Shown piece by piece: positions 49,234 to 56,120 of a DNA stretch of 64,000 nt (its first letter is position 1; each line of letters starts with the position of its first letter). This DNA comes from an uncultured Chlorobiaceae bacterium (lineage in GTDB: Bacteria > Bacteroidota > Chlorobiia > Chlorobiales > Chlorobiaceae). The stretch covers positions 1-64,000 of the forward strand of contig CAIJVD010000018.1 in the NCBI GenBank assembly GCA_903824045.1, given 5' to 3'. Made by a program: the position numbers and the translations under genes. The notes under the pieces were generated by a model. That model was not told where the DNA came from and did no database searches. It was given only the letters and a program-made list of their open reading frames with translations.

Positions 49234-51204
49234 ATGTCCAAAATAGGGGTATTCATCTGTCACTGCGGCGAAAATATTGCCGCAAAGGTTGACTGTACGA
49301 GAGTTGCCGAAGTACTCGGGGATCATCCCGGAGTAGGGGCTTCTGTCGAATACAAGTACTTCTGCTCCGATCCTGGCCAGGAGAGCGTCAAGAGGGCGAT
49401 TCGTGAGAACAATCTCACCGGTGTCGTCGTGGCGGCCTGCTCTCCGAGGATGCATGAAGCTACCTTCCGCAAGGCATGCGCCGAAGCCGGCCTGAACCCC
49501 TACATGTGCGAAATCGCCAACATCCGTGAGCAGTGCTCATGGGTCCACAACGACGGCGAGCAGGCAACCGACAAAGCCATCGATATCATCCGTTCGATGG
49601 TTGAGAAGGTCAAGCGGAACAACATGCTGCAGCCTATTGAAGTCCCGGTTACCCGCAGGGCGCTGGTTATTGGAGGAGGCATTGCCGGCATCCAGGCGGC
49701 GCTCGATATTGCTAACGCTGGACAGGAGGTCGTGCTCGTCGAGCGCGAACCATCCCTTGGCGGTCACATGGCCCAGCTTTCCGAAACATTCCCTACGCTC
49801 GACTGTTCACAGTGTATCATGACGCCTCGAATGGTTGAGGCATCGCAGCACCCCAAGATTCGCCTTCTGACCTACGCTGAGGTGGAGCACGTTGACGGCT
49901 ACATCGGTAATTTCAAGGTGAAGGTTCGCATGAAGGCCCGCTATGTCAACAAGGATACCTGTACGGGTTGCGGCGAGTGTATCACCAAATGTCCCCAGAA
50001 GAAGCTCTCCAGCGAATTCGATTGCGGCATAGGGAAGCGAACCGCCATCTACACCCCGTTTGCCCAGGCTGTGCCGAACAAGCCTGTTATCGACAAGGAT
50101 AACTGTACCTACTTCAAGAACGGGAAGTGCAAGGTCTGCGTCAAGAGCTGCCCTCTCGACTGCATCGATTTCGAGATGCAGGATGAGTTCATTGATCTTG
50201 AAATCGGAGCGATTGTGGTTGCCACAGGGTTCCAGGTACAGAATAATGCGGTTTACGGCGAGTACGGATATGGCAAGTACGCCGATGTCATCAACGGTCT
50301 TCAGTTTGAGCGCCTCGCTTCTGCCAGCGGTCCTACTTCCGGCAAGATCCTGCGTCCCTCAGACGGCAAGGAGCCTGAAAATATTGTCTTTATCCAGTGC
50401 GCAGGTTCACGCGATCCCTCCAAGGGTGTCAAGTACTGTTCAAAGATCTGCTGCATGTACACCGCCAAGCACGCCATGCTCTATGCGCACAAGGTCCACG
50501 GCGGAAAGAGCAACATCTTCTACATGGATATCCGTGCCGCAGGCAAGGGTTACGACGAGTTCACCCGGAGGGCGATCGAGGAGGATGAGGCTGGATATGT
50601 TCGCGGTCGAGTCAGCAAGGTCTGGCAGGAGAACGGCAAGCTGATGGTCCGGGGTGCTGATACCCTTCTCGGCCGGCCGGTCGAAGTTGCAGCCGACATG
50701 GTTGTGCTCGCTACAGCTATGGTTCCGCAGCCTGACGCCAAGGATTTTGCAAAGGTCGTCGGCATCGGCTATGACGAGTACGGCTTCTTCAATGAGGCCC
50801 ATTTGAAGCTCCGTCCTGTCGAGTCATCTACCGCAGGCATCTATCTTGCCGGCGCATGCCAGTCCCCCAAGGACATCCCGGATTCAGTTGCCCAGGCATC
50901 TGCCTCCGCAAGCAAGGTGCTGGCCCTCTTCAGCAAGGAGAAGCTGGAGCGTGAACCGGTAATCGCCGTCAACAACGAAGCTACCTGTGCCGGCTGCTGG
51001 GGCTGCGTGCTGGCATGCCCATACAACGCCATCGAGAAGAAGGATATTCTCGACCGTTCCGGCAAGGTCATCAAGCGGGTCGCATCGGTCAATCCCGGTC
51101 TCTGTCAGGGTTGCGGTACCTGCGTCACCTTCTGCCGCTCGAACAGCATCGACCTGGCCGGATTTACCGAGAAACAGATATTTGCCGAAGTGATGGGCCT
51201 CTAA
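49234..51204 (+). CDS. hdrA: Heterodisulfide reductase subunit A, flavoprotein
   Basis: 656 residues. The N-terminal HdrA domain begins GVFICHCGENIA. A FAD-binding fold starts at ~143 (ALVIGGGIAGIQAALDIANAGQEVVLVE), with the HdrA cluster region GGHMAQLSETFPTLDCSQC. 4Fe-4S motifs CTGCGECITKCP and CKVCVKSCPLDC lie in the middle, and CAGCWGCVLACP plus CQGCGTCVTFC at the C terminus. HdrA is the flavin centre where electron bifurcation occurs in methanogens. It lies 174 bp after hdrCB, the longest gap in the operon, with no terminator seen there. Confidence 0.93.
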   Translation: MSKIGVFICHCGENIAAKVDCTRVAEVLGDHPGVGASVEYKYFCSDPGQESVKRAIRENNLTGVVVAACSPRMHEATFRKACAEAGLNPYMCEIANIREQCSWVHNDGEQATDKAIDIIRSMVEKVKRNNMLQPIEVPVTRRALVIGGGIAGIQAALDIANAGQEVVLVEREPSLGGHMAQLSETFPTLDCSQCIMTPRMVEASQHPKIRLLTYAEVEHVDGYIGNFKVKVRMKARYVNKDTCTGCGECITKCPQKKLSSEFDCGIGKRTAIYTPFAQAVPNKPVIDKDNCTYFKNGKCKVCVKSCPLDCIDFEMQDEFIDLEIGAIVVATGFQVQNNAVYGEYGYGKYADVINGLQFERLASASGPTSGKILRPSDGKEPENIVFIQCAGSRDPSKGVKYCSKICCMYTAKHAMLYAHKVHGGKSNIFYMDIRAAGKGYDEFTRRAIEEDEAGYVRGRVSKVWQENGKLMVRGADTLLGRPVEVAADMVVLATAMVPQPDAKDFAKVVGIGYDEYGFFNEAHLKLRPVESSTAGIYLAGACQSPKDIPDSVAQASASASKVLALFSKEKLEREPVIAVNNEATCAGCWGCVLACPYNAIEKKDILDRSGKVIKRVASVNPGLCQGCGTCVTFCRSNSIDLAGFTEKQIFAEVMGL

Positions 51205-51252
51205 GGGGCGCCCCTCTTTACATGAATGGAACATTGCAACAGGAGTAAACCG

Positions 51253-51702
51253 ATGAGTGAGCAATTTGAACCCGAAATCGTCGCCTTTGTCTGCACCTAC
51301 TGCACCTACGCGGGTGCCGACCTTGCGGGTACCAGCAGATTGAAGTATGCGCCGAACGTCCGCATTATCCGTCTCCCCTGCACCGGCAGGATAAGCCCGA
51401 TGTTTATTCTTAAAGCTTTGCAGAAAGGGGCCGACGGCGTGCTCATCAGCGGCTGCCATCCTGGCGACTGCCACTTCACCCACGGCAACTATCACGCCCG
51501 GCGCCGCTGGATGGTCTTTCGCGCACTGCTCAACTTTATCGGCATTCCCCCGGAGAGAATCAAGTATTCATGGATCAGCGCGGCTGAAGGTCTCAAGTTT
51601 GCTGACCTGATCAACAGCATTACCGAAGATATCCGGAAACTCGGCCCGTTCGAGCAGTACGACAAGCTGATCGCAGAGACCGAGGCCCAGGCGTCACTAT
51701 AA
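51253..51702 (+). CDS. flxD: MvhD/FlxD-type 2Fe-2S electron-transfer subunit
   Basis: 149 residues from the ATG at 51253, with AGGAG (51241-51245) eight bases upstream. The MvhD family signatures are clear: IVAFVCTYCTYAGADLAGTSR, VRIIRLPCTGR and GVLISGCHPGDCHFTHGN. MvhD links a hydrogenase or dehydrogenase to HdrA; in Flx-Hdr complexes the partner is the NAD-binding Flx module, encoded by the next three genes. Position between hdrA and the other flx genes supports this. Confidence 0.9.
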   Translation: MSEQFEPEIVAFVCTYCTYAGADLAGTSRLKYAPNVRIIRLPCTGRISPMFILKALQKGADGVLISGCHPGDCHFTHGNYHARRRWMVFRALLNFIGIPPERIKYSWISAAEGLKFADLINSITEDIRKLGPFEQYDKLIAETEAQASL

Positions 51703-51714
51703 AAAATACACCCA

Positions 51715-52545
51715 ATGAGTATCGAGCAACAATACAGAACGAGGGCAAAGGAACTTCTCTCATCCGGCGAGGTGAAGATGGTTATCGGGTACAGCAAGGG
51801 CTCGACTCCCGACCGACGCAGACCGGCATTCATCAGCACCCCTGAGGATGTTGAGACTCTTGTGCTTGATGGCGCCTGCATTGCCAACCTCTCAGGATAT
51901 CTGGTAACCGAAGGGCTGCTCAGTGATGAGAAGCGCGTCGCCGTTTTTCTGCGTCCTGAGGGAATCCGTGCCATCAATATCCTTGCAGCCGAGTTCCAGC
52001 TTAACGCCGCACAGGTAGAGATTCTTGGATTCAACACAGAGGGAAACGAGCCGACTGCGCTCAGCGGAAGCAAGGTAGACGACTTTGCAGAGCTGATCGG
52101 CACGCTGAAAGGGATCATCCCGGATACAGCCGGCGAGGAGCTCTACAAGAAGCTTGAAGCGATGAGCCCACAGGAGCGGTTTGACTTCTGGCAGTCTGAG
52201 TTCTCGAAGTGCATCAAATGCTATGCCTGCCGCCAGGCCTGCCCGATGTGCTACTGCCGGAGGTGCATTGTCGATAACAACCAGCCGCAGTGGGTCAACA
52301 CCTCCTCCCATACGCTCGGCAACTTCGAGTGGAACATCGTGCGCGCCTTCCATCTTTCAGGTCGGTGTGTCGAGTGCGGCAACTGCGACCGCGCCTGCCC
52401 GGTCAACATCCCTCTCCGCCTGATCAACCGGAAGATGGCCGGCGAGGTACTCGAGGCATTTGACCACTTTGCAGGTTCAAGCCAGACGCAGGAGCCGGTG
52501 ATGGCAAGTTTCAAGAAGGACGATACCGAGACATTCATTCTCTAA
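51715..52545 (+). CDS. flxC: Iron-sulfur protein of the Flx-Hdr complex (FlxC-like)
   Basis: 276 residues. An N-terminal domain (VKMVIGYSKGSTPDRRRPAF, LVLDGACIANLSGYL) is followed by an unusual cysteine-rich region CIKCYACRQACPMCYCRRC and a second motif CVECGNCDRACPVNIPLRL, together able to hold two 4Fe-4S clusters. The first part resembles the FrhB/4Fe-4S ferredoxin proteins found in flx loci. The symbol follows the mirrored order of flxABCD and should be taken as a position-based guess. It is 12 bp after flxD. Confidence 0.75.
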   Translation: MSIEQQYRTRAKELLSSGEVKMVIGYSKGSTPDRRRPAFISTPEDVETLVLDGACIANLSGYLVTEGLLSDEKRVAVFLRPEGIRAINILAAEFQLNAAQVEILGFNTEGNEPTALSGSKVDDFAELIGTLKGIIPDTAGEELYKKLEAMSPQERFDFWQSEFSKCIKCYACRQACPMCYCRRCIVDNNQPQWVNTSSHTLGNFEWNIVRAFHLSGRCVECGNCDRACPVNIPLRLINRKMAGEVLEAFDHFAGSSQTQEPVMASFKKDDTETFIL

Positions 52546-52558
52546 GTAACCAACGCGT

Positions 52559-53572
52559 ATGACCAAAATTCTTTACACCGATAAGCTTGACAACTGCGTC
52601 GAACGCTGGAGATCGGCTGGCCTTTCGGTAATCGGTCCTGTCCGCAACGCCAACATAACGGCATATCGTCCGGTAGGCAGTGCGGCTGATTTGGAGCTCT
52701 CGCAAATTCTTCCTGACCGCTCGATCAAGGAGCTCTTCTTTCCGCAGACCGAGCCGATGATGCGCTACTCCATTAAAAAGGACGCGATCAACACCGAGGA
52801 GTGCCTTCCTCCAGTTGGGCCGAGGATCATTTTCGGCGCAAGGCCGTGCGATGCATCCGGACTGGCCATTGACGATCCGCTTTTCGGCTGGGACTACAAG
52901 GATGAGTACTGGTTCAACCGCCGCAACGAGACGGTCATCGTCTCTATTGCCTGTACCAAATCGGATGAGTTCTGCATGTGTACCTCGCTGAAGCTCTCCC
53001 CTGACAGCACAAAGGGATCCGACGTGCTGCTTCGTCCGCTCGAAAGTGGCAAAGGGTGGCAGGTTGAGGAGCTCACTGACAGGGGTCGTGAGGCCTTCAA
53101 GGCAATCGCAGAGCTTCTCACAGAGGGCGCAGAGGCAGCGGCACCGACTGCCGTTGTTGCTGAAAAGTTTGACGCAGATGCATGTTCCGAGTGGCTGAGA
53201 AACCCTGAAAACTTCGAGAGCAGGTTCTGGAAGGAGATTTCGGTGCGCTGCATCGGCTGCGGTTCCTGCACCTATCTCTGCCCAACATGCCACTGCTTCG
53301 ACATTCAGGATGAGGGTGACACCTTCACCGGCATCCGCAGAAAGAACTGGGACAGCTGCTCTTTTGCTCTGTTCACCATGCACACCTCAGGCCATAATCC
53401 CCGCTCAACGCAGTCGGCACGGTGGCGCCAGCGCATCATGCACAAGTTCAACTATTTTCCCGGCAAGTTTAGTGCAAACAGCTGCAGCGGTTGCGGTCGT
53501 TGCACCAGACAGTGCCCGGTAGACATGGGTATAACGGAAACTTTACAAGAGATCTCAAAATTATCGCAGTGA
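52559..53572 (+). CDS. flxB: 4Fe-4S dicluster subunit of the Flx-Hdr complex (FlxB-like)
   Basis: 337 residues, related to the beta subunit of sulfhydrogenase/anaerobic sulfite reductase A (HydB/AsrA family): FFPQTEPMMRY, FGARPCDASGLAIDD and ACTKSDEFCMCTS in the first half. Two 4Fe-4S motifs lie in the last third (CIGCGSCTYLCPTCHC and CSGCGRCTRQCPVDMG). It would pass electrons between the NAD-binding subunit and FlxC/FlxD. Its TGA overlaps the GTG of the next gene by 4 bp. The symbol is position-based. Confidence 0.78.
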   Translation: MTKILYTDKLDNCVERWRSAGLSVIGPVRNANITAYRPVGSAADLELSQILPDRSIKELFFPQTEPMMRYSIKKDAINTEECLPPVGPRIIFGARPCDASGLAIDDPLFGWDYKDEYWFNRRNETVIVSIACTKSDEFCMCTSLKLSPDSTKGSDVLLRPLESGKGWQVEELTDRGREAFKAIAELLTEGAEAAAPTAVVAEKFDADACSEWLRNPENFESRFWKEISVRCIGCGSCTYLCPTCHCFDIQDEGDTFTGIRRKNWDSCSFALFTMHTSGHNPRSTQSARWRQRIMHKFNYFPGKFSANSCSGCGRCTRQCPVDMGITETLQEISKLSQ

Positions 53573-54435
53573 CAGAAAACATCCACAGCGCGCCACAGAA
53601 CATCTACAAGCCGGCCATCATGAAGATCGTCGCCCGCCACGACGAAGCGCCAGGCGTAAGAACCATGAGGCTGGAGTTTCAGGACCCGGCCGAGCATGAG
53701 CAGTTCAAGGAAACGTTCCGTACAGGGATGTTCGGCCTCTACGGCATCTACGGCGAGGGGGAGAGTACCTTCTGCGTCGCCAGTCCGGAGACCAGGAAGG
53801 AGTATATCGAATGTACATTCCGCCAGTCCGGCAGAGTGACTTCAGCCCTGGCGAGTGCCGATGTCGGTGATCTTGTTACCTTCCGCGGCCCTTATGGCAA
53901 TCGCTTCCCGATCGAGGATTTTTACGGCAAGAACCTGCTCTTCATCGCTGGAGGCATTGCGCTTCCGCCGACAAGAAGCGTTATCTGGTCCTGCCTTGAC
54001 CAGCGCGAAAAGTTCGGCAAGGTTACCATCGTTTACGGTGCCCGTACCGTTGCTGATCTTGTTTACAAGCATGAACTTGAAGAGTGGCAGAAGCGTGACG
54101 ACGTTGATCTCGTGCTTGCTGTCGATCCGGGTGGAGAGTCGCCTGACTGGAAGCACCGTGTCGGCTTTGTTCCGACCGTGCTCGAAGAGGCAGCGCCATC
54201 GGCAGAGAACTGTGTGGCAGTGCTCTGCGGGCCACCGATCATGATCAAGTTCACCCTGAACTCGCTCAAAAAGCTCGGCTTTGAAGAGTCGAATGTCTAT
54301 ACCACGCTTGAAAATCGCATGAAGTGTGGTCTTGGCAAATGTGGCCGCTGCAACGTCGGATCGGTCTATGTCTGCAAGGAGGGCCCGGTCTTTACTGCTG
54401 CCGAAGTTGCCCTTATGCCTCAGGCAGACCTTTAG
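53569..54435 (+). CDS. flxA: FAD/NAD(P)-binding subunit of the Flx-Hdr complex (FlxA-like)
   Basis: 288 residues from GTG at 53569, which overlaps the previous TGA (GTGA); the frame opens earlier but inside flxB. A ferredoxin-NADP-reductase-type fold of the HydG/AsrB/PyrK-like group: FAD barrel (TFRGPYGNRFPIEDFYG), nucleotide domain (NLLFIAGGIALPPTRSV, VLCGPPIMIKFTLNSL) and a C-terminal 2Fe-2S motif CGLGKCGRCNVGSVYVC. It is the likely NADH entry or exit point. It is the last gene of the operon, followed by a hairpin. Confidence 0.88.
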   Translation: MTENIHSAPQNIYKPAIMKIVARHDEAPGVRTMRLEFQDPAEHEQFKETFRTGMFGLYGIYGEGESTFCVASPETRKEYIECTFRQSGRVTSALASADVGDLVTFRGPYGNRFPIEDFYGKNLLFIAGGIALPPTRSVIWSCLDQREKFGKVTIVYGARTVADLVYKHELEEWQKRDDVDLVLAVDPGGESPDWKHRVGFVPTVLEEAAPSAENCVAVLCGPPIMIKFTLNSLKKLGFEESNVYTTLENRMKCGLGKCGRCNVGSVYVCKEGPVFTAAEVALMPQADL

Positions 54436-54512: not shown

Positions 54513-56120
54513 TCATCTGAGCCTGACTCCCGCAAACCGTTCCGGCTGATGGAAATCGGGCGGCGCATCGTTATGACTCCACCAGGGAAAAAGCCCGTAC
54601 TCTCCCCTGCCGGATGATCCGCAGCACTGCAGATGAATAACTCCCTGCTCAACAAAAGGCTTGATCAACTCCCAGGAAAGCTCCATGCCGAATGAGGAGC
54701 CATCCCGTAAGTGACACAGGTGCCCTCTCCATGGATCTTCAGAAAGCATCTGGTGGCCCGAGTTTCTTACTCTTGGAGCATCAAAGCGGAGCGCCACCCA
54801 CTGCCCTTCAGGGGTCATTTCGAGCTCAAGGTAGCCAGCTCTCGTGCCAACAAAAAGCTCAGAGACCCCGTAGTTCCAAAGGGTGTCGACAAAACTTCCA
54901 GAAGGAAAGGTCGTCGGCGGTTTTACCTCAAAGCCTGTCGATCTGTCATAACGGGTAGACCAGCGAAGAAACGGGGCCGCAGGATCTGCTTCTGCCTCTT
55001 CAAGAGAGCGAAGCTGCTCGATTTCAACCGTAAAGCCTGCAGGGAACTCCCGCTCTCTGCCGTAGTACCCTACCAGCGGACCTTTCAGGAGCGTAGCGGG
55101 CAGAATCGGTTCTGCCTCGGCGCTCTCCGCTCCATCCGGAATGGCCAGAAGTCCGGCCCATCCACGAGCGGGATCGTTGGATGCCTCACGATAGCGGACG
55201 CCGCAGGAGTCAAGCAGAGCGCGATCAAACAGCCCGATACACTCCACCTCAAGCTCAAGCTCCACGCCGCACTGTTCAAGGGCAGCTGCTCTCATTCGAG
55301 CGGCAAGGGCAAGCACATCACGGGCGGAGGATCCCCCTTTATTGAAGATGAAGTTCGCATGGTGCATGCTGACCGATGCACCACCTTCCGACGCACCCTT
55401 GAAGCCGAGCTCTTCAAAAATGGATCCGCTGGAACGGCCGGCGTCATAGTTGTTCTTGAAGGTTGAGCCGCAGCTCGGAAAATCAAAGTGATGTTTGAGG
55501 CTTCGCTCCTCTTCATGGCCGAGCATGAGTCGCCGAATCTCGGCGGGAGCGCATTCATCGGGAAAGCGAAGCACGACGCCTGCAACTATTTCGGGACTGG
55601 CCATAAGAGAGGTCTGCTTGTAGCCGAGGAATGTCTCTTCGGGTGAGCGCCACAGAAGATGGCTGTCAAGAGAGGCTACCAGGAGTCCGGAGGTGATCCG
55701 GGAGAGTTCTCCGCCGAAACAGCGCGCGTTCATCCTGACAGCGGCCCCTATCTGCCCTGGAAGCTTGTAGAGCCACTCTCCCCCGCCTCTTGATGAGGCA
55801 AGAAGCTTCTCGGCAACAGCGGTGTTCTCTGCCCCTGCCTCGCAGAAGAGCTCGCTTTCGGAGATCCAGAAAACCCTCTGCATGGAGATGAGCGAGATAA
55901 CAATGCCAGGGAAGGGCTCGTCCGAAAATACAATGTTGGTGCCGCTTCCCATAAGCGCAAGGGGAAGGCCTGCCTGACGGTTCCAGTGAAGCAGGGCCAA
56001 GAGCTGGACAGGACTCTCGGGCAGTGCAAGGTATCTGGCTTTGCCGCCGATGCCGTAATAGGCACGCGCTGCAAGGTCAACATTGGATAAAAATGGACAG
56101 GGCAGGCTCAAATCAGCCAT
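54513..56120 (-). CDS. murB: UDP-N-acetylenolpyruvoylglucosamine reductase with CBM9-like C-terminal domain
   Basis: 535 residues; normal MurB is 300-350. Residues 1-~300 are MurB: LMGSGTNIVFSD (FAD), LYKLPGQIGAAVRMNARCFGGE, GYKQTSL, the catalytic-Ser loop CGSTFKNN (Ser219), HHANFIFNKGGSSARDVL and the terminal Glu in ELELEVECIG. Residues ~330-535 form an unrelated domain (TLWNYGVSELFVGTRAGYLELEMTPEGQWVALRF; WRGHL; CGSSGRGEYGLFPWW) resembling carbohydrate-binding CBM9-like proteins. MurB makes UDP-MurNAc in the cytoplasm; a sugar-binding appendix is unexpected. It is not near other mur genes. Confidence 0.85.
   Translation of the reverse strand: MADLSLPCPFLSNVDLAARAYYGIGGKARYLALPESPVQLLALLHWNRQAGLPLALMGSGTNIVFSDEPFPGIVISLISMQRVFWISESELFCEAGAENTAVAEKLLASSRGGGEWLYKLPGQIGAAVRMNARCFGGELSRITSGLLVASLDSHLLWRSPEETFLGYKQTSLMASPEIVAGVVLRFPDECAPAEIRRLMLGHEEERSLKHHFDFPSCGSTFKNNYDAGRSSGSIFEELGFKGASEGGASVSMHHANFIFNKGGSSARDVLALAARMRAAALEQCGVELELEVECIGLFDRALLDSCGVRYREASNDPARGWAGLLAIPDGAESAEAEPILPATLLKGPLVGYYGREREFPAGFTVEIEQLRSLEEAEADPAAPFLRWSTRYDRSTGFEVKPPTTFPSGSFVDTLWNYGVSELFVGTRAGYLELEMTPEGQWVALRFDAPRVRNSGHQMLSEDPWRGHLCHLRDGSSFGMELSWELIKPFVEQGVIHLQCCGSSGRGEYGLFPWWSHNDAPPDFHQPERFAGVRLR

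Follow-up and report, generated by a model that had tools for sequence, protein, structure and literature searches.

MurB, the UDP-N-acetylenolpyruvoylglucosamine reductase (UDP-N-acetylmuramate dehydrogenase) of the second committed step of peptidoglycan precursor synthesis, is essential in nearly all walled bacteria and is a drug target. Canonical MurBs, such as those of S. aureus (1hsk) and E. coli (1mbb), consist of a FAD domain and a MurB_C domain, and in the E. coli enzyme Arg159 and Glu325 touch the substrate carboxylate (PMC12844806). A lineage-restricted fusion is known in the Verrucomicrobia, where the working MurB of Verrucomicrobium spinosum is a MurB/MurC enzyme (PMC4803751), and murB is reported to have been lost from the dcw cluster in the superphylum that also holds the bacterium studied here (PMC8871954). 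The carbohydrate-binding module TmCBM9-2 of Thermotoga maritima xylanase A (1i82, 1i8a) binds polysaccharide ends; its sugar clamp is formed by Trp71 and Trp175, and hydrogen bonds to glucose come from Gln96 and Asn172 (PMC8280721).

In the window, by which we mean the whole 64,000-nucleotide stretch that was analyzed, the minus-strand gene at 54513-56120 is a single 535-residue frame with an ATG start and no internal stops, in which a complete MurB (residues 1 to ~300) is followed by ~225 residues of a different domain (Table 1). Both MurB domains score above their Pfam cut-offs (PF02873, MurB_C, residues 194-295, E = 2.9e-25, 88.8 bits; PF01565, FAD_binding_4, residues 30-140, 41.3 bits), the protein reaches 161 against the NCBIfam cut-off of 144.5 for TIGR00179, and solved MurBs align with it over residues 13-296; taken together, these comparisons assign residues 10-297 to MurB. 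A preliminary description of this DNA had proposed a full MurB with an extra in-frame domain, and these matches confirm it and add the strand. Like the V. spinosum enzyme, the gene is a lineage-restricted MurB fusion that presumably serves as its host's working copy, but the partner there is the next enzyme of the pathway, whereas the partner here, a CBM9-like domain, gives no indication of enzymatic function. The name of the CDD model cd09627, 'DOMON_murB_like', suggests that MurB with an attached DOMON-like domain is already catalogued; no functional or evolutionary study of a MurB-CBM9/DOMON fusion was found in the literature searched.

Table 1. Features of the fused gene and of related loci. 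Entries without a locus prefix are window positions.
Feature	Position	Strand	Evidence or remark
murB-CBM9 fusion gene (535 aa; coordinates include the stop codon)	54513..56120	-	ORF; frame intact across family
MurB reductase part, residues 1-300 (FAD-binding domain + MurB_C)	55221..56120	-	Pfam, NCBIfam, solved-MurB alignment
Lys168 codon, at E. coli Arg159 position	55617..55619	-	alignment; Arg159 role from PMC12844806
Ser219 codon, equivalent of E. coli catalytic Ser229	55464..55466	-	alignment; kept in 51/51
Glu291 codon, equivalent of E. coli Glu325	55248..55250	-	alignment; kept in 51/51
C-terminal extension, residues 311-535	54516..55190	-	purifying selection, dN/dS 0.19-0.36 among relatives
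CBM9_2-homologous core, ~residues 408-533	54522..54899	-	hhalign P 95.4%, E 1.9e-8
Trp415 codon, matching Trp71 in the sugar clamp of TmCBM9-2	54876..54878	-	alignment, invariant; clamp from PMC8280721
Phe523 codon, matched via CBM9_2 (4jpq) to Trp175 in the sugar clamp of TmCBM9-2	54552..54554	-	alignment, invariant
Five-gene operon, electron-bifurcation type	49234-54435	+	runs towards murB
Full-length dcw-type MurB homologues, second genus (g19)	L163:4702-5631, L164:4997-5920, L165:4582-5499, L166:2315-3256, L167:1583-2524, L168:1841-2782, L169:1856-2779, L171:1746-2690
Truncated MurB, same genus (genome G083)	L203:5790-6692	-	FAD half only, ~187 aa
MurB-like mini-protein	G000:C11:4664-4912 (L202:4649-4945 minus); L204:5701-5961; L205:4750-5016
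Stand-alone CBM9-like proteins, 216-227 aa, other families of phylum	L093:5111-5794 (-), L094:5394-6044 (+), L095:5615-6277 (-)

A search with the tail alone found it in 84 of 86 genomes of the family, among them every one of the 65 with a completeness of 90% or more. We take this family to be the Chlorobiaceae, and its second genus (g19) to be Prosthecochloris-like, from what is known of the group and from the two loci, both of uncultured Chlorobiaceae (L032, L033), that a search of contigs with one sequence returned. With the whole protein as query in 61 genomes, matches across the genus covered both parts at 50-62% identity; those in the order's other families covered residues ~10-300 and then ended. 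Sister families of the order encode an ordinary MurB of ~310 residues, in the dcw cell-division cluster where checked, and a class-wide search with the full profile returned the same distribution of fused and ordinary MurB. The survey of relatives proposed in the preliminary description thus places the fusion in every near-complete Chlorobiaceae genome searched and outside the sister families. No real match to the tail was found in plasmids, and none in viral contigs.

The same survey bears on whether two genes have been joined through a frameshift, which the preliminary description named as fatal to a fusion, or through misassembly or wrong annotation. Isolated stops do occur in the fused frame in a few draft genomes. 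Wherever the contig is intact, however, the frame runs to ~530 residues or more, in both genera and in single-contig genomes, and this continuity across the family leaves such an artifact practically excluded. Both parts are under purifying selection among close relatives (dN/dS 0.10-0.24 for the MurB part), their pairwise identities co-vary (r = 0.88), and the family alignment contains no conserved internal Met from which the tail might be translated on its own.

The genome, which is 99.96% complete, encodes no complete MurB besides the fused one. The fused gene lies on contig C18, murE, murC and murG on C37 and murA on C35, with further Mur-ligase genes also present, so that the gene was correctly described as standing apart from other mur genes; given the superphylum-wide report of murB loss from the dcw cluster (PMC8871954), a separate locus is by itself unremarkable. 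The dcw order of the genome is ftsW-murG-murC-[297 aa]-ftsA, where the 297-residue gene, without a family match, occupies the ftsQ position. Since ~25 bp separate it from murC, no murB or remnant lies between them. The check for a second murB therefore returned no other complete copy, and the idea of a moonlighting paralogue loses its support. Because it is the sole complete MurB of a genome with murA, murC, murE, murG and further Mur-ligase genes, the fused protein is presumably the working enzyme. As its active site is unusual, we presume this activity from its sole-copy status.

Relative to the canonical enzymes, the fused MurB keeps the FAD domain, MurB_C, the catalytic Ser and Glu and the length of the enzyme part. 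It differs in its extra C-terminal domain, in MNARCFG replacing the MNAGAYG of ordinary MurB, in NY replacing PP after FKN, in a long stem in the tree, and in the residue at the Arg159 position. There, 51/51 Chlorobiaceae fused proteins carry Lys, a conservative swap, whereas 11/11 outgroup MurBs and S. aureus carry the Arg expected of a MurB. The protein would therefore best be labeled, on alignment evidence, a divergent MurB.

Other members of the family retain traces of an ordinary copy. In a sister family the dcw order is murG-murC-murB-ftsQ-ftsA, and a full-length MurB homologue of 305-315 residues persists in several genomes of the second genus; its placement between murC and ftsQ comes from L163, the only locus in which the neighbours were read closely. 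Among the eight aligned copies the FAD-loop Asn is missing from 8/8, the catalytic Ser from 7/8 and the Arg from 7/8, yet they evolve under purifying selection (dN/dS 0.13-0.34). These full-length dcw-type copies are probably pseudoenzymes, judging from their residues. A same-genus genome assembled as a single contig has a truncated MurB, the N-terminal half only, between murC and the gene in the ftsQ position, and similar partial matches in two more (G024, G011) are likely further cases of truncation. Separately, a stand-alone mini-protein of ~87-98 residues, which resembles only the first 83 residues of MurB and has no Pfam match, is conserved in most same-genus genomes and adjoins ORFs of ~220-233 and 276 residues.

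Coexistence of fused and dcw-type copies in one genome implies that the fused gene arose as an extra MurB, through either duplication or transfer, and took the other's place. The best tree joins the dcw remnants to the order sisters (support 94/82) and leaves the fused copies outside this group, at the end of a stem of 1.6-2.3 changes per site. This topology speaks against the view that the fused MurB is a Chlorobiaceae-specific, very fast-evolving duplicate of dcw murB, rather than a foreign lineage, and that the original later decayed. AU tests nevertheless reject neither the grouping of fused with dcw copies (p = 0.10) nor that of fused copies with the order sisters (p = 0.28-0.37), and such a duplication has somewhat less than even odds.

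To identify the tail, which had been guessed to be CBM9-like, we compared it with domain collections at several levels of sensitivity. Residues ~300-535 alone gave no convincing Pfam, NCBIfam or PDB match, a tail profile found no match in PDB (hmmsearch), and single tails stayed below the curated Pfam cut-off of CBM9_2 (the best, one member out of 30, reached E = 0.018). In a profile-profile comparison (hhalign) with CBM9_2 (PF16011) domains gathered from the phylum, by contrast, the tail profile aligned with a probability of 95.4% (E = 1.9e-8), against E = 0.08-0.71 for eight column shuffles and 0.36 for the reversed profile; a repeat on a shorter core gave E = 2.4e-7. The guess is thus upheld at the level of remote homology (all controls at least 0.08), although a plain domain search falls short of the Pfam cut-off. 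As the tail profile has no direct signal with CBM9_1, the link to that family runs via CBM9_2, which matches CBM9_1 with TmCBM9-2 (1i82) at E = 1.6e-18.

In an alignment of 30 tails, certain W, E, F, Y, C and H residues never vary, including those in LWxxxxSELF, YLExE and a terminal FHxP. With CBM9_2, whose solved member (4jpq) is uncharacterised, the tail shares a length of ~200 residues and the core motifs VEFF, a YYNFE-like element and a terminal FHxPxxFG-like element; it differs in scoring under the Pfam cut-off and in being fused to MurB instead of standing alone. Three stand-alone CBM9-like proteins occur in other families of the phylum, and these distant relatives of the tail, with weak CBM9 matches of their own, help to bridge the gap to CBM9. 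The tail is predicted to fold as a beta-sandwich of CBM9/DOMON type. This prediction draws on sequence profiles, because AlphaFold2 models of the tail and the full-length protein from 3-row alignments were poor (pLDDT 45 and 37) and a PDB fold search with the tail model returned noise.

DOMON, the wider fold group of CBM9, includes heme binders, going by the title of Iyer 2007 as cited in PMC2739507, and MurB is a flavoenzyme; the tail could on these grounds be a heme domain or another redox domain that exchanges electrons with the flavin of MurB. The tail alignment has no invariant Met (Met169 of the tail is Ile in L065 and L071) and one invariant His only, so there is no conserved Met/His pair of heme ligands, and the closest profile is CBM9_2 rather than a cytochrome. 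We consider a heme-binding tail very improbable.

With respect to the sugar clamp, Trp71 and Trp175 of TmCBM9-2 align with Trp415 and Phe523 of the fused protein, so that both aromatics are present, the second as Phe instead of Trp. By our reading of the alignments Gln96 corresponds to Glu432 and Asn172 has no counterpart. Sugar binding by the tail is plausible from the clamp positions, though the hydrogen-bonding residues differ. The main rival takes this difference further: the tail would be a CBM9-derived domain that no longer binds sugar, a purely structural or protein-contact module through which MurB dimerizes or docks on the divisome, MurA or MurC, and so recruiting the product of a non-dcw gene. 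The tail is cytoplasmic (no signal peptide is visible and MurB is N-terminal), parts of the inter-domain segment are conserved, unlike a loose linker, and one CBM9 module without the expected binding residues has been described (PMC8280721), all of which fit this rival. Invariance of both clamp aromatics across the aligned family members is what would be expected of a ligand site, and we regard a solely structural tail as rather unlikely.

We favor, with a probability of about 0.55, the reading that the cell's only MurB is fused to a cytoplasmic CBM9/DOMON-type domain that acts as a ligand-binding regulatory or docking module, and that this fused MurB displaced the dcw murB. The ligand would most likely be a sugar. 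In the ancestor of the Chlorobiaceae, a fused MurB outside the dcw cluster would have replaced the ordinary enzyme, whose gene sat between murC and ftsQ; that copy would then have lost its active site (several second-genus genomes), been truncated (one same-genus genome, likely two more) or been deleted (the window genome). The W415/F523 clamp may pack against the sugar ring of, for instance, a nucleotide-sugar intermediate or the end of a glycan, and this contact might tune or place MurB. In a more specific version, the tail would sense a sugar in the cytoplasm, gate or position MurB accordingly and so couple this step of wall synthesis to a carbohydrate signal; the Lys-site MurB would have displaced the dcw MurB, and the dead sister-genus copy would be retained in the division cluster for some non-enzymatic function. 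This version seems unlikely.

A whole family relying on a divergent MurB with a domain of sugar-binding type would offer a natural test of carbohydrate control of precursor synthesis at MurB, and its Lys for Arg a natural test of how far a MurB active site can change. Purifying selection on dead MurB copies suggests a non-catalytic role of MurB in the division cluster.

Next to the fused gene, the five-gene operon encodes a FAD/Fe-S HdrA-like protein, FlpD/MvhD, two Fe-S proteins and an NAD-binding reductase. The neighbourhood is conserved at every same-genus locus examined and at 1 of 5 second-genus loci.
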